Assembly (NCBI RefSeq): GCF_003387615.1
Contig: NZ_QUNS01000002.1
Coordinates: 62,001 to 126,000, forward strand
Source of the DNA: Tenacibaculum gallaicum
Lineage (GTDB): Bacteria; Bacteroidota; Bacteroidia; Flavobacteriales; Flavobacteriaceae
DNA length: 64,000 nucleotides
Direction of reading: 5' to 3'
Below the pieces are notes generated by a model. It ran no database searches and had not been told where the DNA came from. It saw only the letters and a list, made by a program, of their open reading frames with translations. Shown here in pieces: positions 55,788-64,000 of this stretch (positions within the stretch are counted from its first letter, which is position 1; each line of letters begins with the position of its first letter). Both the position numbers and the translations under genes were made by a program.

Positions 55788-57260
55788 CTATTCTGTAAGT
55801 TCTAACACACGGTTTCTAGTACGAAGTCTTATTTCACTAAGTTTTTCATCGACTAACAATTTTCCGTTTCTAAAAACTTCTCGTAATTCGCCTTCTTGTT
55901 CTTCTTCCCAACTTACTTGATCGTGTAATTTGTACTCTCCATCTTTTAGCGTTATTTTTAATAGCCCTTTAGCAGATTTTTTTGTTCCATCATCTGTAAT
56001 TGGATCTTTAAAAATTGCTCTTCCTTCTCCATCTACTTCTCCGTAAGTTGCTTTCATGGCAAAACCAAAAGTATCTCTGGTATTGTATTGATAGGTAAAA
56101 GAACCAATTCCTAGCACTACATTAGTAGAAGCAAATCCTTTTTGTTTTAAGCGTTCACAAATTTGTGTTGCTCTTTCAAGGGTAATACTATCGCCATAAA
56201 TAGCTCCGATATGACTATCTAGTTCTTTGTATCCTTTTGCATTGGTTGCTCCTCCAAAAACTTCCCAAAGCAGTTGTATAACTCCTTTTTGTGCTGCTTC
56301 TGTCTTACCGTTTGGATTTCCGCAAATAATATCTACAGGATCACCACTATCTGGTCTTATGACTACTTTTCCATCTCTAGCCATCACTTCTTCTTTTAGG
56401 CTTGGTAAGTATTCGGTAAGAACCTTCCATAAATCCCAAGTATCAGAAACAATAGAAACAATACCGTTTGGGTATACTTCCGTAATTAATCTTTTAAAAG
56501 TTTCTTCTTCACGGCTGTTAGTTCCCATACACATTACAGAGTGTTCAGTTGCCGCAACAGAACCTCCAATTAATTCGTTGTCAGAATCTGCATTGTAGTA
56601 CTTTTCTAAAAAATCTACAGCAGGAATTGTATCTGTACCAGTAAAACTTAATAAGTGACCAGCAGCACTCATTTCTGCAGCTTCTAAACCAGCCATTCCT
56701 CTCATAGAAAAGTCGTGTCCTTGCCAATCTACCATTTCAGGGACAGATGAGGTTTCTTGTGCGTATTTGTCTAATATTTTTCTGTATTGTTTTGCGATGG
56801 TTGCAGAATTACATGGTAACCAAACTGTGGTAGATAATAAGGTTTCAAAATAGTTGGTTAGCCAAAAGAATTCTGGTAATGTATTATACATGGTAAACAT
56901 TGGTACTCTGATAGGAACTTCTACACCTTCAGGTAATGCTTTAAAAGTCATAGGAATGTACCCTAAATCGTGTAACGCAGCAATATGCTCAATACCTACT
57001 GAATTTTCACCTAAATAATTATTGATTCTTCTACTGTATTGTTTGCAAATTTCTTCTTTTGGTTTGTTAAAGAAGTTGGTTTTAAATTCTTCAATGATGT
57101 ATTTTTTGATGAAGTATTGCAGTCCAAAAAAAACAACCTTCTCAACACCTTGAATTCTACTTTTTCTTGGGGTCCAGTTTGAATATACTAACGTGGTATT
57201 GTTAGGGTATTGTCTTCTGTGGTCTACTTTATAACCGTCTGTATATAATAATGGGTTCAT
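55788..57260 (-). CDS. nadV: nicotinamide phosphoribosyltransferase (NAMPT-type)
   Basis: 490 residues, the length of eukaryote-like NAMPT and longer than nicotinate enzymes. It condenses nicotinamide with PRPP to NMN in one step. Motifs: MNPLLYTDGYKVDHRRQYPN, a middle region SFTGTDTIPAVDFLEKYY, and IRPDSGDPVDI (PRPP/phosphate site, about 305-315), FGFAMKATY. PRPP would come from the Prs encoded in the same cluster. The start codon is 15 bp from a 21-bp operator shared with prs and the Nudix regulator. Last gene of the island. Confidence 0.93.
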   Translation of the reverse strand: MNPLLYTDGYKVDHRRQYPNNTTLVYSNWTPRKSRIQGVEKVVFFGLQYFIKKYIIEEFKTNFFNKPKEEICKQYSRRINNYLGENSVGIEHIAALHDLGYIPMTFKALPEGVEVPIRVPMFTMYNTLPEFFWLTNYFETLLSTTVWLPCNSATIAKQYRKILDKYAQETSSVPEMVDWQGHDFSMRGMAGLEAAEMSAAGHLLSFTGTDTIPAVDFLEKYYNADSDNELIGGSVAATEHSVMCMGTNSREEETFKRLITEVYPNGIVSIVSDTWDLWKVLTEYLPSLKEEVMARDGKVVIRPDSGDPVDIICGNPNGKTEAAQKGVIQLLWEVFGGATNAKGYKELDSHIGAIYGDSITLERATQICERLKQKGFASTNVVLGIGSFTYQYNTRDTFGFAMKATYGEVDGEGRAIFKDPITDDGTKKSAKGLLKITLKDGEYKLHDQVSWEEEQEGELREVFRNGKLLVDEKLSEIRLRTRNRVLELTE

Positions 57261-57274
57261 AGTTTGTTGTTTTA

Positions 57275-57295
57275 TTTGTGTTAAATTTACGCAAA
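57275..57295 (-). promoter_or_regulatory. predicted NrtR operator upstream of nadV
   Basis: On the minus strand TTTGCGTAAA-TTTAACACAAA. It matches the other two sites (61609-61629 and 62363-62383) at most positions: TTTG(T/C)GTAAA...AC(A/G)CAAA. The -7-like TTAATTTG overlaps its first TTTG. Location 14 bp before the start codon fits repression. Confidence 0.7.
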
Positions 57296-57328
57296 TTAAA
57301 ATTAACTGACAATTAAATCTTTGAAATT

Positions 57329-58339
57329 TTAGTTTACCCCCTCTAAATATTGATTAAAAAGAGAAGATATTTCTTCTATATATTGTTTCCCTTCAACATT
57401 CTCAATCATAAAATCAGGAAGGCTTTCAACTCCATACAATCCTGAGTTAATTCCTGTTGTTATAGATGCTACAGAGTCAACATCACCTCCAAGAAAAATA
57501 GATTTCTTAAGAGCATCAAAAGCACTTGTACTATTTTTTAAGATATATAGAACACAGCCTGTGGTGTATTTTGAATCTGATGGCATACCGTTAATCCCAT
57601 CTAAAAAATATGGTTTTCTTATGGGTTGATGTCCGCATAATGTTTCGTAATTACTCTTAGTTAATATCTCATTTGATTTTATCTTATTAACAGAGGTAAG
57701 GTAATTTTTATATTCACCATTTAGATTTACTTTTTCTATACAGTATTTTATGAGGTTTTCTTTATTTCCTTTTTTTATAAGTAAGTACTCAGTAGCTCTT
57801 GCAATGCATTGACTACTAAGTATGGCATTTATATTAGGATGTGTTGCATTAGCATTGATCTCTGCATATTTATTAATGAGATTTGAAGGAATAAAGCCTA
57901 GTGGGACTGATCTCATAGCTGGAGCATTTCCGGGAGTTGATCTATTTCTTTGAAAGTTTTTAATTTCTCTAATTGTCATTTCTCCAGAAAAAAACCACCT
58001 CATTGATCCATGACCATTTCTGCCGTAGCCTTTTTCATGTTTACCTTTGTTGTATTCATCTTCCCATTTCTCTATTAGTAAATTTTCATTAAACTCTTTT
58101 TTTGAATAAAGAGCTTTTATAAGTCCAATTGTCATTTCTGTATCGTCTGTGTACTGCCAATCGTAATAATTTTCTGTAAAAGCACTTAACTTATCAGCTG
58201 AGACTTTAATTAAGTGGCGTACGTTGATGAATTTGGTAAAATCTACATTTTTTTGAATCCAATTTCTATCTTGAAACTCTAAGCCAGCACCAAAAGCGTC
58301 TCCTATAGCTATACCCAGTAAAACATTGTATAAATTCAC
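57329..58339 (-). CDS. ADP-ribosylglycohydrolase family protein
   Basis: 336 residues with GTG start. Family motifs for the two-Mg2+ site: LGIAIGDAFGAGLEF near the N-terminus, YTDDTEMTIGLIKA (about 63-74) and LGGDVDSVASITTGINSGLYG (about 287-307). These enzymes remove ADP-ribose from Arg, Ser or small molecules. Here the Mg motif reads GGDVDS instead of GGDTDT. It lies in the NAD/ADP-ribose operon, between the NADAR and nadV genes, so it likely frees ADP-ribose from a conjugate made in the cell. Confidence 0.88.
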   Translation of the reverse strand: MNLYNVLLGIAIGDAFGAGLEFQDRNWIQKNVDFTKFINVRHLIKVSADKLSAFTENYYDWQYTDDTEMTIGLIKALYSKKEFNENLLIEKWEDEYNKGKHEKGYGRNGHGSMRWFFSGEMTIREIKNFQRNRSTPGNAPAMRSVPLGFIPSNLINKYAEINANATHPNINAILSSQCIARATEYLLIKKGNKENLIKYCIEKVNLNGEYKNYLTSVNKIKSNEILTKSNYETLCGHQPIRKPYFLDGINGMPSDSKYTTGCVLYILKNSTSAFDALKKSIFLGGDVDSVASITTGINSGLYGVESLPDFMIENVEGKQYIEEISSLFNQYLEGVN

Positions 58340-58381
58340 AATATCATATTTAATTATATCTAAACTTTTGTAGTCAAATGT

Positions 58382-58936
58382 TTATGATTTTTTGTTTAAT
58401 AAGTCTCTAACTTCCATTAAGACATAGCCTAATAAATTGTGCCCTTTCCATAACTCTGGATTAGTAACATTAGGATTGTCAGCAGACATTCCAATTCCCC
58501 ATATAGAATCAACAGGGCTTGCTTCTACTATAATTCTATCTTTTGTGTTTAATAAAAATTCTTTTAAGTCTTTATTTTGAGAAAATTTAGCATGGTTGGC
58601 TTTTACGACGATTTCGAATTTGTGTTGATCCCATACTTCTGGAGAAAAGTTTTTAACCTTCCTCCCTAGTTTTTTTACTTGATGAGGTGTACTAGCAGAA
58701 AGGATTTCTTGTAAAGTTTCTTCACCATTAAACACTTTCGCTTTACCAGCCATCATATAATGCTCAGCAGTAGGGTAGGTAATACCATCGATTTCAAAAG
58801 AAGCTTTCCACCACTGGCTGAAACAGCTTTTACCGACGCTTCCATCCTTGTTGGGTTGATGCCCCCAAAAAAATAAGAATTTTAAGTTTTCATTATTGTT
58901 GTAACGTGCTATTATTGTTTCGTTATTATATTTCAT
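58382..58936 (-). CDS. NADAR (YbiA-like) family protein
   Basis: 184 residues. Recognised by FLFFWGHQ, CFSQWWKASFEIDGITYPTAEHYMMAGKAKVF, ILSASTPHQVKKLGRKVKNF, SPVDSIWGIGMSADN and NLLGYVLMEVRDLL. Known NADAR proteins remove ADP-ribose from guanine bases in DNA/RNA (or act on riboflavin intermediates in the RibX fusion). With a KptA and a macro domain in the same operon, the nucleic-acid de-ADP-ribosylation role is the better guess. Confidence 0.92.
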   Translation of the reverse strand: MKYNNETIIARYNNNENLKFLFFWGHQPNKDGSVGKSCFSQWWKASFEIDGITYPTAEHYMMAGKAKVFNGEETLQEILSASTPHQVKKLGRKVKNFSPEVWDQHKFEIVVKANHAKFSQNKDLKEFLLNTKDRIIVEASPVDSIWGIGMSADNPNVTNPELWKGHNLLGYVLMEVRDLLNKKS

Positions 58937-58958
58937 AGTATTATTATTTAGATGAATT

Positions 58959-59684
58959 TTAATTCCTTCCTTTTTCGTTTTTATACAAAGTTTTTACTTG
59001 GTCGCTTTGCCAAAATTCTTTGCTGTCGATATCTATAATAGTTAAATATCCTGTAAATGCAGCTCCTGTATCAATGTTCCATAGGTTTAAAGCGTTTATA
59101 GGTTTTGATGAATTGTAGCGTATAGTTGGGGTGTGACCAATGTATATTTCTGAATAATGTGTAAATCTTTCAGGGTATAATTCTGACTCTTTAGGTAAAT
59201 CTTTATCAGTAGCTAAAGCAGTTTCCCATAAGGTTCTATCAAAATGATAATTTAATTTGAAAGTCTCTTTTTCAACTCCATGCATAGAAGTGAATCCAGC
59301 ATGTATAAACAAACGATTTTTACTATCGATATGGTAAGGTTTCATTTGTTGAAAAAAAGCTAAATGTTTTTGTCTTTCTTTTTCTGAATAAGATTCGTAG
59401 CTTTTTTTGGTTTCTTCACCACCATGTGCTAACCAAATGGTTTCACCTTTACCAGTTCTCAACCAATCTTCACACCACAAATCATGATTCCCTTTAATAA
59501 AAACGCATTGATGCTTTTTATTTAGCTCTATTAAATAATCAATGACTTGTGCAGACTCACTCCAACCGTCCACATAATCACCAAGAAAAATTAAGGTAGC
59601 TTCTAAGGTAACTTTGGCTTTTTTTAAAACTTGGGGTAAGGCTTTTAAGCCTCCATGAATATCACCAATGACAAATGTTTTCAT
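58959..59684 (-). CDS. PPP-type metallophosphoesterase
   Basis: 241 residues. Metal sites: GDIHGG (7-12), GDYVDGWSES (35-44), GNHDLW (65-70), then IHAGFTSMHG and IGHTPTIRY. This is the protein-phosphatase-like (ApaH/PrpE-like) PPP family. Start 4 bp after the kptA stop, so translation is coupled. In this operon it might hydrolyse a phosphate on ADP-ribose, e.g. ADP-ribose 1''-phosphate, or a nucleoside polyphosphate; inference only. Confidence 0.85.
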   Translation of the reverse strand: MKTFVIGDIHGGLKALPQVLKKAKVTLEATLIFLGDYVDGWSESAQVIDYLIELNKKHQCVFIKGNHDLWCEDWLRTGKGETIWLAHGGEETKKSYESYSEKERQKHLAFFQQMKPYHIDSKNRLFIHAGFTSMHGVEKETFKLNYHFDRTLWETALATDKDLPKESELYPERFTHYSEIYIGHTPTIRYNSSKPINALNLWNIDTGAAFTGYLTIIDIDSKEFWQSDQVKTLYKNEKGRN

Positions 59685-59688
59685 ACTA

Positions 59689-60243
59689 TTATAAATCTAA
59701 AAATTCAATAAATTCAGCCGGGACAAGATTCGTTAACCAAACTCCATTTTCAGATAAAAAGAACTCATATCCTTTTTTATACATAGCCCCTGACTGAACA
59801 GTTAAAATTATAGGTTTACCTCTTCTACTACCTACTTTTTTAGCAGTTTCTAAGTCAGAACTCAAATGAACATGTTGCCTACTCATTTTTTGTAATCCAT
59901 TTTCTTTTATTGAGGGAATAAATTCAGCTACAGTTCCATGATATAAAAATTGAGGAGGAGTCTTTGTTTCAGTTGCTATTATTACATTCTTCAATGAATG
60001 TCCTTGATTTGCTCTTATTTTAGTTTGATTTTCATTTAATGAAAATCGTTGTTTGTCGTTATTTTTTACGATAAATTTCAGTTCTTCTTTTGTAAAAGTA
60101 ACTCCGTTGTTACTTGATTTGTTCAAAAGTTCTTCTACTGAAGCCCATCCGCTGATATCTAATTTTAGACCAATTTTTTCAGGCTGATGCCTTAATATTA
60201 GGCTTAAAAACTTACTTATTCTTTTTGTGTTTTTTTCATTCAT
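59689..60243 (-). CDS. kptA: RNA 2'-phosphotransferase (Tpt1/KptA)
   Basis: 184 residues, same length as E. coli KptA. It moves an internal RNA 2'-phosphate to NAD+, giving ADP-ribose 1'',2''-cyclic phosphate and nicotinamide. Conserved residues: SLILRHQPEKIGL (Arg18-His19), IRANQGHS (Arg77), FLYHGT (101-104), and RQHVHLS (Arg122, His124, His126). The nicotinamide released is the substrate of NadV in the same cluster, and the cyclic ADP-ribose phosphate is a substrate of Poa1-like macro enzymes. A normal bacterial tRNA-splicing substrate does not exist, so the RNA target is open. Confidence 0.95.
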   Translation of the reverse strand: MNEKNTKRISKFLSLILRHQPEKIGLKLDISGWASVEELLNKSSNNGVTFTKEELKFIVKNNDKQRFSLNENQTKIRANQGHSLKNVIIATETKTPPQFLYHGTVAEFIPSIKENGLQKMSRQHVHLSSDLETAKKVGSRRGKPIILTVQSGAMYKKGYEFFLSENGVWLTNLVPAEFIEFLDL

Positions 60244-60254
60244 AATTTAGATTT

Positions 60255-60731
60255 TTAGTCAAAATCATATACTGTGGTGGAAATGGATTTTTTTATAAGC
60301 TCTTTTATAATTAAGGGCTCTATTTTACCCCAAGTTCCACCAGCTAATCCACAGCCAATTCTTGGCATATGAACGGATGCATTTAACTCTTTAGCTTTAT
60401 TATGTACTTTTTGTAATCCTTGTTGAATAGCTTCATAACGAATTGGAGGATTACCATTTTCATCTTTTCTAATTTTGTGTTGCCCTATAAGATTTGCAAT
60501 CCACAGATCGTCTTTAACTTGTATAAATTGAACTTCTCCTAAATTAAAATTTTCTTTAGTTTTATACCAGTTACGATACGCTTTTTCTGGAGTTTTCCAT
60601 CTTTTGGAAATCGCCATAACAAAACCTTTTCCCCAGCCACCAATATCATTACAAACATGAACAATAATTTTATTACCTTCTTGTTTTGGTAGGCTTGCGT
60701 CTCCTTTTATGTACTTAACATCATTCATCAT
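60255..60731 (-). CDS. Poa1-like macro-domain protein
   Basis: 158 residues. Macro fold with ADP-ribose loops: KIIVHVCNDIGGWGKGFVMAIS (22-42) and HMPRIGCGLAGGTWGKIEPLI (121-141). GGWGKGF is as in the yeast ADP-ribose-1''-phosphatase Poa1 and ALC1/TARG-like members. The gene starts 40 bp after prs stops and 11 bp before kptA begins; it probably turns over the ADP-ribose phosphate that KptA makes. Confidence 0.93.
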   Translation of the reverse strand: MMNDVKYIKGDASLPKQEGNKIIVHVCNDIGGWGKGFVMAISKRWKTPEKAYRNWYKTKENFNLGEVQFIQVKDDLWIANLIGQHKIRKDENGNPPIRYEAIQQGLQKVHNKAKELNASVHMPRIGCGLAGGTWGKIEPLIIKELIKKSISTTVYDFD

Positions 60732-60771
60732 TTAGTAGTTGTTGTTTTTCATAATAATTTTTGTCTAGTCT

Positions 60772-61608
60772 TTATAGCAATTTTCCCAATTCAATCTGTA
60801 TACAATTATCGTTTTCTATAGTTTTAAAACTATCCGTTGTAAAAATTTTGGTGAAGTGTTTTTGAAGCTCATCAAAACCTTTACTAAATATTCCGTGACT
60901 TATCGCTAAGTATAAGTTTCCTGCGTTCTTTGCTTTTAGTTCTTTAGCTAGCCCTAAAAAAGTTCCACCACCATCGCAAATATCATCGACTAGTAAACAA
61001 TTTTTTCCTTGTAGGTCATCAGCATATACTTTGAAACCTGTTAGCTGACCAGTCTTTACATTTCGGCTTTTTGAACATTCTACTACTTCATAATTTTGAA
61101 GGTAGGCAGCAACTTTATATATTTTTTTTAAAGCACCTCCGTCTGGTGAAATTAGAAGTAAGTTGTCTGATAATTGTTGAGTAACGTGCTCTATGAATTT
61201 GTGGTTATCTATAATTCTACAGTTATTCAATAGGGCAGGAGTTACCTCAGAATGTGGGTCGAAAATAGTTACTGACTCAAAGTTTTGTGTATTTATAATG
61301 TCTGCATATACTTTTACCGATAAAGGTTCACCAGATACCATTAATCTATCTTGACGCGCAGCGGGAAAATAAGGAAGTACAACATGTAGTTTTTTTATTC
61401 CCATATTTTTTAGTGCATTGGTAGCCAATAATAGAATACCTATGTCATTAAAAGATAGAATACGATGTGTAATCGTTACTTCAGTTACATTTTCAAGTTT
61501 AGAAATGATTTTAATATGCGGTTCCCCTCCTGAAAAAGTAAAGAAATTATAGTCTATATTGTTTTCGGTTCCGTAAGGAGTAAAGTGTTTGTCTAAGTTT
61601 AAAATCAT
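60772..61608 (-). CDS. prs: ribose-phosphate pyrophosphokinase (PRPP synthase), short form
   Basis: 278 residues, shorter than the usual 310-320. It makes PRPP from ribose-5-phosphate and ATP. Signature: LHVVLPYFPAARQDRLMVSGEPLS, catalytic region SVTIFDPHSE, LLISPDGGALKKIYKVA and the PRPP loop CLLVDDICDGGGTFLGLA. It is like the Prs proteins found next to nadV in phages and some bacteria. The start codon adjoins a 21-bp operator. ADP-ribose breakdown would also yield ribose-5-phosphate, closing a cycle. Confidence 0.93.
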   Translation of the reverse strand: MILNLDKHFTPYGTENNIDYNFFTFSGGEPHIKIISKLENVTEVTITHRILSFNDIGILLLATNALKNMGIKKLHVVLPYFPAARQDRLMVSGEPLSVKVYADIINTQNFESVTIFDPHSEVTPALLNNCRIIDNHKFIEHVTQQLSDNLLLISPDGGALKKIYKVAAYLQNYEVVECSKSRNVKTGQLTGFKVYADDLQGKNCLLVDDICDGGGTFLGLAKELKAKNAGNLYLAISHGIFSKGFDELQKHFTKIFTTDSFKTIENDNCIQIELGKLL

Positions 61609-61629
61609 ATTGCGTAATTTTTACACAAA
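61609..61629 (-). promoter_or_regulatory. predicted NrtR operator upstream of prs
   Basis: On the minus strand TTTGTGTAAAAATTACGCAA plus T. Arms TTTGTGTAA / TTACGCAA are an inverted repeat with one mismatch. It directly adjoins the prs start codon. Confidence 0.75.
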
Positions 61630-61633
61630 TATA
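61626..61633 (-). promoter_or_regulatory. -7 element of the prs operon, overlapping the operator
   Basis: TATATTTG (perfect TAnnTTTG). Its TTTG is the first four bases of the operator, so a bound repressor would cover the -7 element. A TTG at -33 is not seen. Confidence 0.65.
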
Positions 61634-61672
61634 ACGTGGTTTTTTAAAATAAAAAATGTTTTAGTGTTTTTT

Positions 61673-62362
61673 TTACGCAAACTTAATTTCGAAGTGAAAC
61701 CCTTTCTTTTCTAGTTCTTTATATTTTTTAGCATTAAACTTAAAAAGTTTCGCAGGCCTACCACTAGATGGTTGGTGTATTTTGTCTGTTTCAGTAAGTA
61801 TTTCGAAGCTCATGATTTTTTTTCTGAAATTACGTCGGTCAATTTTTTGGTCAAGAATAGTTTGATAGAGGTTTTCTAAATCAGAAAAAGGGAATTCTTT
61901 TTTTAATAGTTCAAAACCAATAGGTTGGTAGTTTATTTTGTTTTGAAGTCTTTGTGAAGCTGTGGTTAAGATAAGGTTGTGGTCAAAAGCTAATTGTGGT
62001 AATTCATGGATAGGAAACCATTGTACTTCAGCAGCATCTGTACTTGCACTGATTTTAAAATGATTTGGACTTACCAAACCAAAATAGGTAACAGAAATTA
62101 CTCTGTTTCTGGGATCTCTTTTTGGAGCACCGAATGTGTATAATTGTTCAAGATAATCAATCGTTACTCCTGTTTCTTCCAATAATTCTCTTTCAACAGC
62201 ATGTTCCAGTGATTCATTTTCTAAAACTAATCCACCAGGCAATGCCCAAGTTCCTTTAAAAGGTTCAATGCCTCTTTTTATTAATAAGACAGAAAGTTCT
62301 TTTTGTTGGTAGCCAAAAACAACAGCATCTACAGCAACTTTTATATTTTGTGATATCTTCAT
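61673..62362 (-). CDS. NrtR-like Nudix-fold transcriptional regulator
   Basis: 229 residues. The N-terminal Nudix domain (about 8-140) has an intact Nudix box (44-66): GGLVLENESLEHAVERELLE then ETGV, so it may still hydrolyse an ADP-ribose-type ligand. The C-terminal domain (about 145-229) contains KIDRRNFRKKIMSFEIL and GRPAKLFKFNAKK, which match the winged-helix half of NrtR. NrtR proteins repress NAD genes and sense ADP-ribose, NAD+ or related molecules. It lies at the head of the cluster and has the same operator before its own start, so self-regulation is likely. Confidence 0.9.
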   Translation of the reverse strand: MKISQNIKVAVDAVVFGYQQKELSVLLIKRGIEPFKGTWALPGGLVLENESLEHAVERELLEETGVTIDYLEQLYTFGAPKRDPRNRVISVTYFGLVSPNHFKISASTDAAEVQWFPIHELPQLAFDHNLILTTASQRLQNKINYQPIGFELLKKEFPFSDLENLYQTILDQKIDRRNFRKKIMSFEILTETDKIHQPSSGRPAKLFKFNAKKYKELEKKGFHFEIKFA

Positions 62363-62383
62363 TTAGTGTTGAATTTACACAAA
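62363..62383 (-). promoter_or_regulatory. predicted NrtR operator upstream of the Nudix regulator
   Basis: On the minus strand TTTGTGTAAATTCAACACTA plus A, immediately before the start codon. Matches the prs and nadV sites. Confidence 0.7.
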
Positions 62384-62387
62384 GTTA
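62380..62387 (-). promoter_or_regulatory. -7 element of the regulator gene, overlapping the operator
   Basis: TAACTTTG (perfect TAnnTTTG); its TTTG starts the operator, the same layout as at prs. Confidence 0.65.
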
Positions 62388-62403
62388 CGAAAGTTTTAAA
62401 AAA

Positions 62404-62781
62404 TTATGGATTCTTATTTTTAAACTTAGAAGTTAGTTTATGCAATGGTGTTTTTTGATTATCTTTTTGTAATGTAAATTGAACAATTTTAGCAGTAAAG
62501 GCAACAAAAGTTCCGATAGATAGAAAGGTATAGATGATTGTAAATATTTTACTAATATTATGAGTAGGAACAAAGTCTCCATAACCTACCGTAGCCATTG
62601 TCATTACAGAGAAGTATAAAGAGTCTATAACTTCCCAATGCTCAATTTTGTGATAGAATATAGTAGAGCTAGTTAATAATAGAGACAGAAAAAAGAATAG
62701 ATACCTAAATTCAGTATCTTTTTTGATACCTATAAAAACAAGTTTACAAAAACGATAAAAGTTAATAAAGAAGGATATCAT
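62404..62781 (-). CDS. small two-TM potassium channel protein
   Basis: 125 residues. Outer helix YLFFFLSLLLTSSTIFYH, pore helix SLYFSVMTMATVGYGDFVP with the K+ filter TVGYGD (64-69), and inner helix IFTIIYTFLSIGTFVAFTA. This is the minimal Ion_trans_2 / KcsA-like channel without an RCK domain. It is 41 bp upstream of the regulator gene on the same strand; functional link unclear. Confidence 0.92.
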   Translation of the reverse strand: MISFFINFYRFCKLVFIGIKKDTEFRYLFFFLSLLLTSSTIFYHKIEHWEVIDSLYFSVMTMATVGYGDFVPTHNISKIFTIIYTFLSIGTFVAFTAKIVQFTLQKDNQKTPLHKLTSKFKNKNP

Positions 62782-62819
62782 AATTAAAAGTAAGTTAGAT
62801 GAAAAGTTTAATATATAAT

Positions 62820-63359
62820 TTACTTACAAACCTTGCAATCTTCTTTATCTTGAATTTCTCCAACCAGCTTGCCTTCTTCGTTAAGTGAAAATCCACAACA
62901 ATCCATAAAACCTTGCGCAATTAATTTACGAGCACGTTGAATCTGAGATTTTGTAGTAGGTAAGTTTTGTTTTAAGGTATTAGCAACTTCTTGCTGTTTT
63001 AACCCTTTAATATCTGATAAAAATAGAGGGTCTCTATATTTTTTTGGCAAGCTTTGTAAGATTCCGCGTAAGCAATCTTTTTCAGTATGTTCGTGTTCTT
63101 TTACATCAGTTTGAGCTTCAAAATTTTTTAATTCAACCGTTTGATTAGTGTTTTTGAAGTAATCCATCATTGTGTTACGAGCAATCGTAAAAATCCAAGG
63201 CTTTAGTTTGGTAATGTCTTTTAATGTGTGAAGCTTGGTATGAACTTTTATGAATGTTTCTTGTAAGAGGTCATCAGTTACCGTAGAGTCTTTCACTTTG
63301 CTTAAAATAAAGTGTTTTACATCATCTGCATATTTTTTCCAAACTTGTTGTGTTGTCAT
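62820..63359 (-). CDS. RNA polymerase sigma factor, SigZ type
   Basis: 179 residues. ECF region 2 (about 10-80: VTDDLLQETFIKVHTKLHTL, LKPWIFTIARNTMMDYFKN) and region 4 (about 95-155: LPKKYRDPLFLSDIKGLKQQEVANTL, KSQIQRARKLI). A Cys-rich tail MDCCGFSLNEEG ... KEDCKVCK is typical for SigZ and could sense metals or thiols. No anti-sigma factor gene is next to it. Upstream lie a Cys-rich peptide and a DUF3703 gene on the same strand. Confidence 0.92.
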   Translation of the reverse strand: MTTQQVWKKYADDVKHFILSKVKDSTVTDDLLQETFIKVHTKLHTLKDITKLKPWIFTIARNTMMDYFKNTNQTVELKNFEAQTDVKEHEHTEKDCLRGILQSLPKKYRDPLFLSDIKGLKQQEVANTLKQNLPTTKSQIQRARKLIAQGFMDCCGFSLNEEGKLVGEIQDKEDCKVCK

Positions 63360-63378
63360 AGTATAAATTTACGAAAAA

Positions 63379-63429
63379 TGTCACGCTGAATAAAATGAAT
63401 GTTATGTTTTCATTGTATTCAGAATGACA
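63379..63429. repeat. REP-like long hairpin
   Basis: Nested inverted repeats: TGTCA ... TGACA outer, CTGAATA ... TATTCAG next, AATGAA ... TTCATT inner. It lies between the sigZ gene and the Cys-rich peptide gene; it could stop or attenuate the upstream transcript. Related to other TGTCA-ended repeats of Flavobacteria. Confidence 0.7.
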
Positions 63430-63451
63430 AGAATTTTAAAAGTTGATTTAA

Positions 63452-63556
63452 TTAACAGTTACAGTTATTACACGTACAGTTTTCACAAGTACAATTTGAG
63501 CAGTCTCCTGTTTTACATCCTTCGCAAGTGCAGGTACATTGATTATTATTTTTCAT
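63452..63556 (-). CDS. Cys-rich metallothionein-like peptide (34 residues)
   Basis: Eleven of 34 residues are Cys, at positions 7, 9, 11, 14, 19, 22, 24, 27, 29, 32 and 34, in CxC and CxxC spacings, with Asn, Thr, Glu and Gly between and no aromatic residue. Start MKNNNQCTCTC; stop TAA. The number and spacing are as in metallothioneins and small copper/zinc chelators. It lies between sigZ and a DUF3703 gene on one strand, a likely metal-response locus. It is short and would be missed by usual length limits. Confidence 0.75.
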   Translation of the reverse strand: MKNNNQCTCTCEGCKTGDCSNCTCENCTCNNCNC

Positions 63557-63620
63557 GATATTATATGTTTTGTGTGTTCATATAGTAGACTAGAAAATGA
63601 GCAAAAAGATGCATTTATTT

Positions 63621-63956
63621 TTAAAAATATTTTTGAAGTTCTTTTCTAACAGGAATAGGTTTAATTGCAGATATGTTAGAGCCACCTGTGTTTCCTGTAG
63701 GTGCCCAAATGTTTGTAAAAAATATTGAGGCAATAATTCTAGAGATTTGACCTAATATTTCTTTACTGTTTTTTGTTTTTATTCCGAATATAAGCATATA
63801 GTAATGCGACAAGGTATGACGATACATGTGTTTTTGACCTAAAATATGTGCATTTTCGAAATGATAAAAAGACATCTGAAAGTGTTTACTTTTAAGTGCC
63901 TTTTTAGCTAAAGTTAATTGTCTGTAATATTCTTGTTTTCGTTGTAGCTTGGTCAT
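63621..63956 (-). CDS. DUF3703 domain-containing protein
   Basis: 111 residues. Matches the DUF3703 pattern: FYHFENAHILGQKHMYRHTLSHYYMLIFG, and near the end APTGNTGGSNISAIKPIPVRKELQKYF. Proteins of this family often lie next to heavy-metal resistance or transport genes, and two His-rich patches (AHILGQKHMYRH and SHYYM) could bind metal. It is the first gene of the sigZ group and its promoter is near the window end. Function not established. Confidence 0.85.
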   Translation of the reverse strand: MTKLQRKQEYYRQLTLAKKALKSKHFQMSFYHFENAHILGQKHMYRHTLSHYYMLIFGIKTKNSKEILGQISRIIASIFFTNIWAPTGNTGGSNISAIKPIPVRKELQKYF

Positions 63957-64000
63957 GATTTATTGATTTTATAAATCAGACTACAGAGAAATGAAAAAGA

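Follow-up and report, generated by a model that had tools for sequence, protein, structure and literature searches.

In the stretch of Tenacibaculum gallaicum DNA that was analysed here (the window, 64,000 nucleotides), a gene for a 34-residue peptide with 11 cysteines is conserved side by side with the gene of a SigZ-like ECF sigma factor (sigZ), and a predicted promoter that is near-invariant upstream of the peptide recurs before genes for heavy-metal exporters. We consider it likely, judging from sequence, that this sigma factor senses metal by itself, answers ions of the Zn/Cd class and drives both an operon beginning with the peptide gene and a set of exporters, in a manner resembling that of CorE in mechanism. 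The features concerned are the following:

62820-63359, minus strand: SigZ-like ECF sigma factor, 179 aa, with Pfam domains Sigma70 r2 and r4_2
63452-63556, minus strand: metallothionein-like peptide gene, 34 aa with 11 Cys, first gene of the predicted operon
63586-63613, minus strand: predicted ECF promoter TGCATCTTTTT-N12-GTCTA, 29 nt from the peptide ATG
63621-63956, minus strand: gene for a DUF3703 protein (PF12487) of 111 aa, preceded by a separate copy of the promoter motif
63977-64000, minus strand: promoter motif before the DUF3703 gene, with one mismatch, extending 4 bases beyond the window end

An original prediction, made from the letters of this DNA, had pointed to a 34-residue ORF with 11 cysteines placed between sigZ and a DUF3703 gene; the ORF and its position are both borne out, and the strand, which that prediction did not give, is the minus strand for all three genes. 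The peptide, MKNNNQCTCTCEGCKTGDCSNCTCENCTCNNCNC* in translation, contains no histidine and no aromatic residue, and its cysteines are spaced CxCxCx2Cx4Cx2CxCx2CxCx2CxC; it is small and very rich in cysteine, with the CxC and CxxC spacings and the scarcity of aromatic residues that are general among metallothioneins. No other ORF of at least 25 aa in the 64-kb window reaches 25% Cys, and comparable ORFs occurred in none of 40 random windows of similar dinucleotide statistics. These random windows, together with the conservation described below, led us to drop the reading as a chance ORF: the peptide ORF is a real gene. Neither Pfam nor NCBIfam yielded a family for it at E<=10, nor did plasmid records yield a match at E<=1, which upholds within these collections the earlier statement that it does not belong to a described family. 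When 56 relatives of the peptide were compared with Pfam at E<=1, M20_dimer alone was returned, weakly and for two of the 56, and no metallothionein model; the two PDB matches of the peptide are weak (best E 0.81). Across the same 56 relatives ten of the eleven Cys columns are invariant and the eleventh almost so, one member having 10 Cys.

The distribution of the peptide was followed in several samples, the counts being raw, with phylogenetic kinship not accounted for. By tblastn, 29 of 59 relatives gave a match at E<=10, and the 25 genomes at E<1e-3, all within the genus, were kept; in every one of them the peptide stands 5' of the sigma gene. The remaining matches (long-frame matches L026-L028, L029, L030 and others above E=0.01) were dropped. 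Lack of conservation in relatives had been named beforehand as a possible refutation; a profile of the 56 relatives finds the peptide at E<=0.001 in 41 of 58 genus genomes, with one copy per genome, and a SigZ-like sigma factor at E<=1e-40 is found in 41 of the 58 as well. The two sets consist of the identical 41 genomes, strand and order are constant, and the gap between the peptide and sigZ measures 6-171 nt in 40 genomes; in the remaining one it is 706 nt and accommodates a 201-aa frame, as read at locus L173. A sample of the family yielded the peptide in 43 of its 299 genomes, which represent 33 of the 236 genera covered (E<=1e-3). Outside the genus there are 41 matches, 28 of them with locus sequence, and 26 of these 28 loci show both the downstream sigma gene and the motif (<=3 mismatches, spacer length 11-13); at the other two, L059 and L063, the peptide occurs with neither sigZ nor motif in the sequence examined. 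In a sample of the phylum it was found in 5 of 395 genomes at E<=1e-4, all of them Flavobacteriaceae, to which the peptide is confined among the genomes sampled.

The pairing was also examined from the side of the sigma factor, by comparing a sigma-factor alignment with named genomes and taking the best 80 of 512 relatives (the 80 named loci), some of which appear to overlap the genomes of the genus sample. All 80 have the peptide upstream, a result that speaks for close sigZ orthologs only, since the alignment rows were taken from peptide-bearing loci and only the best 80 of the 512 were considered. The gap is 2-126 nt in 79 of these loci and 702 nt in one, and they belong mostly to Tenacibaculum, Polaribacter and Winogradskyella, with some from Lacinutrix, Lutibacter and unclassified Flavobacteriaceae. 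The sigma factor of the window itself comes nearest to Tenacibaculum, with 97% identity. At one locus (L226) a second, shorter sigZ-like ORF, with about 40% identity over 80 aligned residues, follows the peptide and sigZ; this is perhaps a tandem duplicate. Selection on the peptide was assessed in 77 distinct core DNAs from the 80 named loci, none of the 80 peptides being left out, since all match the Cys pattern. The pN/pS of the Cys core is 0.089 over 133 close, non-independent pairs and 0.20 at the 16 non-Cys codons of the core (10 Cys codons excluded); judged by these codon changes, the peptide is under purifying selection.

The sequence TGCATCTTTTT-N12-GTCTA before the peptide is predicted to be an ECF-type promoter. 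Aligning 75 distinct rows that match the core with <=1 mismatch lengthens the pattern to GTCTAtTAtATGAAc; since the core motif served to select these rows, the added positions alone count as independent evidence. Among the best 80 sigZ loci the motif is present at <=1 mismatch in 78 and with two mismatches in one; at L189 the peptide is present and no motif was found within 146 nt 5' of it. In genome G078 the spacer is 13 nt. The DUF3703 protein encoded next to the peptide (Pfam score 120.8 bits vs a gathering cut-off of 22.3) has a motif copy of its own, at C2:125977-126004 in the numbering of its own genome. Among the 25 tblastn loci there are 11 DUF3703 genes that adjoin the peptide; the motif stands before 7 of them at <=1 mismatch and before 10 at <=3 mismatches, and it is absent from one; no paper on DUF3703 was found in the open-licence literature.

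Elsewhere in the T. gallaicum genome the exact motif has one further site: the ORF of a Cd/Zn-type heavy-metal P1B ATPase begins 18 nt behind it. This ATPase scores above the cut-offs of TIGR01525 and TIGR01512, and its gene follows that of a CzcB-like adaptor. One-mismatch copies precede DUF3703 and a zinc-type dehydrogenase/quinone-oxidoreductase-like gene, and at <=2 mismatches there are 9 matches vs 11 of a reversed control; there being no excess, the two-mismatch matches in this genome were not used as evidence. The copy before the dehydrogenase-like gene lies just behind a second SigZ-like sigma gene (C2:409451-409998; L034, L117), and cross-talk between the paralogous sigma factors is possible.

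In the 58 genus genomes, 94 motif matches at <=1 mismatch were obtained in 42 genomes, vs 11 of the reversed pattern; 40 precede the peptide, 16 are in the DUF3703 position (assigned by position, part of them confirmed by sequence), 14 precede a CDF exporter and 24 are elsewhere. The CDF family behind the 14 scores above the TIGR01297 cut-off, its best equivalog being ZitB, below the cut-off of that model. The 24 other matches comprise one before the P1B ATPase described above, one before a CusA/CzcA-like pump (TIGR00914 score 666.5 vs a cut-off of 701.45, for a partial sequence), four before TonB receptors, two before genes of the fatty-acid-hydroxylase family, one before the dehydrogenase/quinone-oxidoreductase-like gene and 15 inside long frames. 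The last were rejected: on one strand a frame of at least 96 codons runs through the motif, and no exporter starts behind it. One of these 15 is exact (G001), and their number is about that predicted by the reversed control. The fatty-acid-hydroxylase family genes (PF04116; L097, L107) begin 17 and 37 nt behind the motif. The TonB-dependent receptors (L075, L077, L086, L100), with a CDF exporter near the motif in two cases, are an unexpected sight, as outer-membrane receptors within a metal-export regulon.

The CDF protein is found at E<=1e-70 in 19 of the 58 genomes, 18 of which have sigZ; in these 18 the motif precedes it at <=1 mismatch in 14 and with two mismatches in 2, and in the other 2 no motif was found before it at <=4 mismatches. 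In the single CDF genome without sigZ there is no motif before the CDF gene. Of the 17 genus genomes that lack sigZ, two have a motif match, one in a long frame and one, with one mismatch, before a TonB receptor (L100), in a genome that is 84% complete. Family-wide, the exact motif gave 24 matches in 23 of the 299 genomes, and the reversed exact motif gave none among the matches listed. The peptide follows in 21 of the 24: in 20 its position agrees with the coordinates from the family sample, and in G159 the motif revealed a peptide that had earlier fallen short of the E<=0.001 cut-off and that has sigZ behind it. The remaining matches are before a CDF that belongs to another genus and is clearly distinct from the one above, before the P1B ATPase of the T. 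gallaicum genome and in a long frame (G242). The best evidence that the motif sites form one regulon is that the motif led to this unlisted peptide and that it recurs before unrelated exporters, and the motif is probably recognised by the SigZ-like sigma factor. The types of exporter in the regulon suggest a signal of Zn/Cd/Co rather than Cu. The original reading of the peptide as metallothionein-like, which had been based on cysteine spacing and the absence of aromatic residues, is supported by its size, its Cys pattern and the motif that it has in common with Zn/Cd-type exporters. A metal-trapping peptide made under metal stress is most likely, because it is conserved beside the sigma gene and has this motif in common with the exporters; in other words, it is most likely a metallothionein-like chelator.

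The sigma factor itself is identified as an ECF sigma factor by Sigma70 r2 and r4_2 domains that are both above cut-off, and its predicted fold has SigH, SigW and CnrH among its neighbours. The best NCBIfam models are those of SigZ; its scores lie below both curated cut-offs (NF007215, 172.3 vs 212 bits; TIGR02959, 160.7 vs 168.65 bits) and for this reason it is named SigZ-like only. Its linker has the conserved residues H91 and C96; C154, C155, C175 and C178 are conserved in the tail, where they form the pattern CC-x19-CxxC. The linker has this single conserved Cys and no CXC. The full pattern of H91, C96, CC and CxxC occurs in 77 of the 80 named sigma factors; of the other three, two keep the tail and one sequence is truncated. 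The predicted structure of the tail is of moderate confidence (block means 73 and 62), so that a folded metal site or its metal geometry cannot be judged from it. By analogy with known metal-sensing sigma factors, direct sensing of divalent metal by this protein is likely.

Among the ORFs of at least 70 aa within about 2.5 kb of the 80 named loci, sigZ alone is common to all, the next most common being present at 37 and DUF3703 at 29; no anti-sigma-like neighbour was seen in this comparison of shared ORFs. In the window, a small ion-channel protein (PF07885; 62404-62781, minus strand) lies directly behind sigZ, and among the 25 peptide loci of the tblastn set it is present in the genome of the window (L002) and in L003 only. 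There also lies in the window a run of genes (55788-62362, minus strand) that we take, from sequence features, to resemble NAD/ADP-ribose metabolism, presumably encoding a nicotinamide phosphoribosyltransferase, an ADP-ribosylglycohydrolase, a NADAR-like protein, a phosphatase, an RNA 2'-phosphotransferase, a macro domain, a PRPP synthetase and a Nudix-type regulator.

A close known parallel is with CorE and CorE2 of Myxococcus xanthus (ECF238, former ECF44), which are likewise ECF sigma factors with C-terminal cysteines, in their case metal-sensing. CorE2 is reported to answer Cd and Zn (PMC8999054), and the linker of CorE is described as bearing a CXC motif, with control of the protein falling to a Cys-rich C-terminal extension instead of an anti-sigma factor (PMC8999054, PMC10141476), a search for such a factor having failed according to PMC3107203. 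The CorE targets named in PMC10141476 include cuoB and copB, with no metallothionein among those named there. The four tail cysteines (CC-x19-CxxC) of the window protein make up a Cys-rich C-terminal extension, whether they suffice for a Cys-rich domain being a matter of definition, whereas the CXC of the linker is replaced by one conserved Cys and the sequence is of the SigZ type; because of this different linker motif we do not class the protein as CorE-like. SigZ of Priestia (NF007215, TIGR02959) has a linker Cys and a tail CC, two Vibrio SigZ proteins have both of these and also a CxxC in the tail, and the tail cysteines of V. cortegadensis SigZ are the same as those of the window protein; the cysteines are therefore partly an old SigZ trait and are not unique to the peptide operon. 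Among the annotated genes of the Priestia and V. cortegadensis records, no Cys-rich peptide stands beside sigZ. OrbS of Burkholderia cenocepacia, also described as carrying its metal sensor on board, differs in being an iron starvation sigma factor.

In the circuit that we propose, excess divalent metal would bind the sigma-factor cysteines (linker C96 and tail CC-x19-CxxC) and thereby activate it, as in CorE/CorE2, and the active sigma factor would read TGCATC-N17-GTCTA promoters. Its targets would be the peptide-sigZ operon, which would thus be autoregulated, DUF3703 and the exporters (CDF, P1B ATPase, CzcA-like). The cytosolic peptide would buffer ions of the Zn/Cd class while the pumps expel them and, as free metal drops, the sigma factor would turn off and the circuit would be shut.

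It is possible, if doubtful, that the peptide is chiefly a regulator which takes metal from the sigma-factor cysteines or gives metal to them, acting as a functional anti-sigma factor with bulk chelation secondary. The one-to-one pairing with sigZ, the single copy per genus genome and the limitation of every other ORF of at least 70 aa to at most 37 of the 80 named loci agree with this, but sequence alone cannot separate regulation from plain buffering, contact between the two partners is conjecture, and the 201-aa frame parts them in one genome. A rather doubtful proposition, to which we give limited credence, is that the peptide and the self-sensing sigma factor make up a closed two-gene metal switch, in which metal would turn the sigma factor on, the first-made peptide would strip the metal back off and the metallothionein would be the functional anti-sigma factor. 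A regulon that responds to electrophile or thiol-oxidative stress and not to metal, with the exporters as passengers, seems improbable: cysteine sensors are able to respond to oxidation and the dehydrogenase/quinone-oxidoreductase-like gene would suit such a role, but this oxidoreductase target was observed once, whereas Zn/Cd/Co-type exporters, from three unrelated families, make up the targets that recur or that vary from genus to genus. A short ORF rich in Cys codons upstream of a regulator could also be a translated leader, an attenuator at which stalling at Cys codons reads the supply of cysteine or thiols and controls sigZ. We set this very unlikely reading aside, since the spacing of the cysteines, beyond their mere number, is fixed, the distance to sigZ can be a few nt or as much as about 700 nt, a search of 62300-64000 revealed no terminator-like site, and both Cys codons occur at each of the 10 Cys columns. 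Small and Cys-rich as it is, the peptide could also give rise to a modified, secreted product or a bacteriocin; this reading is hardly credible and was also set aside, as there is no obvious leader, no gene besides sigZ is common to all 80 named loci (ORFs of at least 70 aa) and the peptide is near-invariant across many genera.

As a metallothionein-like chelator, the peptide resembles SmtA, NmtA and the Pseudomonas metallothioneins in being small and Cys-rich, here in a predicted Zn/Cd context, and differs from bacterial metallothioneins in having no Pfam match, no histidine and no aromatic residue; those of Pseudomonas are described as His-rich (PMC7387436). SmtA and NmtA are reported to be controlled by SmtB/ArsR-type repressors (PMC8790569), and the Pseudomonas metallothionein operon is described as being without metal-responsive regulators. 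MymT of Mycobacterium tuberculosis is also a small bacterial metallothionein inside a metal regulon, in its case that of RicR (PMC10141476), with copper in place of the Zn/Cd class predicted here. A tie between a sigma factor and a metallothionein has a precedent in SigC and mymT, though an indirect one: when sigC was force-expressed in M. tuberculosis, mymT had gone up 5.5-fold after 48 h, a late rise that the authors read as fitting copper accumulation (PMC7924339).

Metallothioneins of bacteria are already known, and so are sigma factors that sense metal. In the open-licence literature, judged by titles and the beginnings of abstracts, we found nothing on this peptide and no metallothionein transcribed from an ECF promoter beside its own sigma gene. 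The characterised bacterial metallothioneins are reported to be mostly repressor-controlled (PMC8790569, PMC10141476), and the introduction of PMC8790569 gives their expression in prokaryotes as proposed to be negatively regulated; direct positive control of a metallothionein by a sigma factor, if true, would follow a different logic. The peptide represents, in flavobacteria, an additional metallothionein-like family that is strictly conserved, a SigZ-type sigma factor gains a concrete predicted regulon, signal and promoter, and DUF3703 becomes linked, through the predicted promoter motif, to metal stress. What had been a metallothionein-like interpretation of a single ORF thereby becomes a testable regulon.
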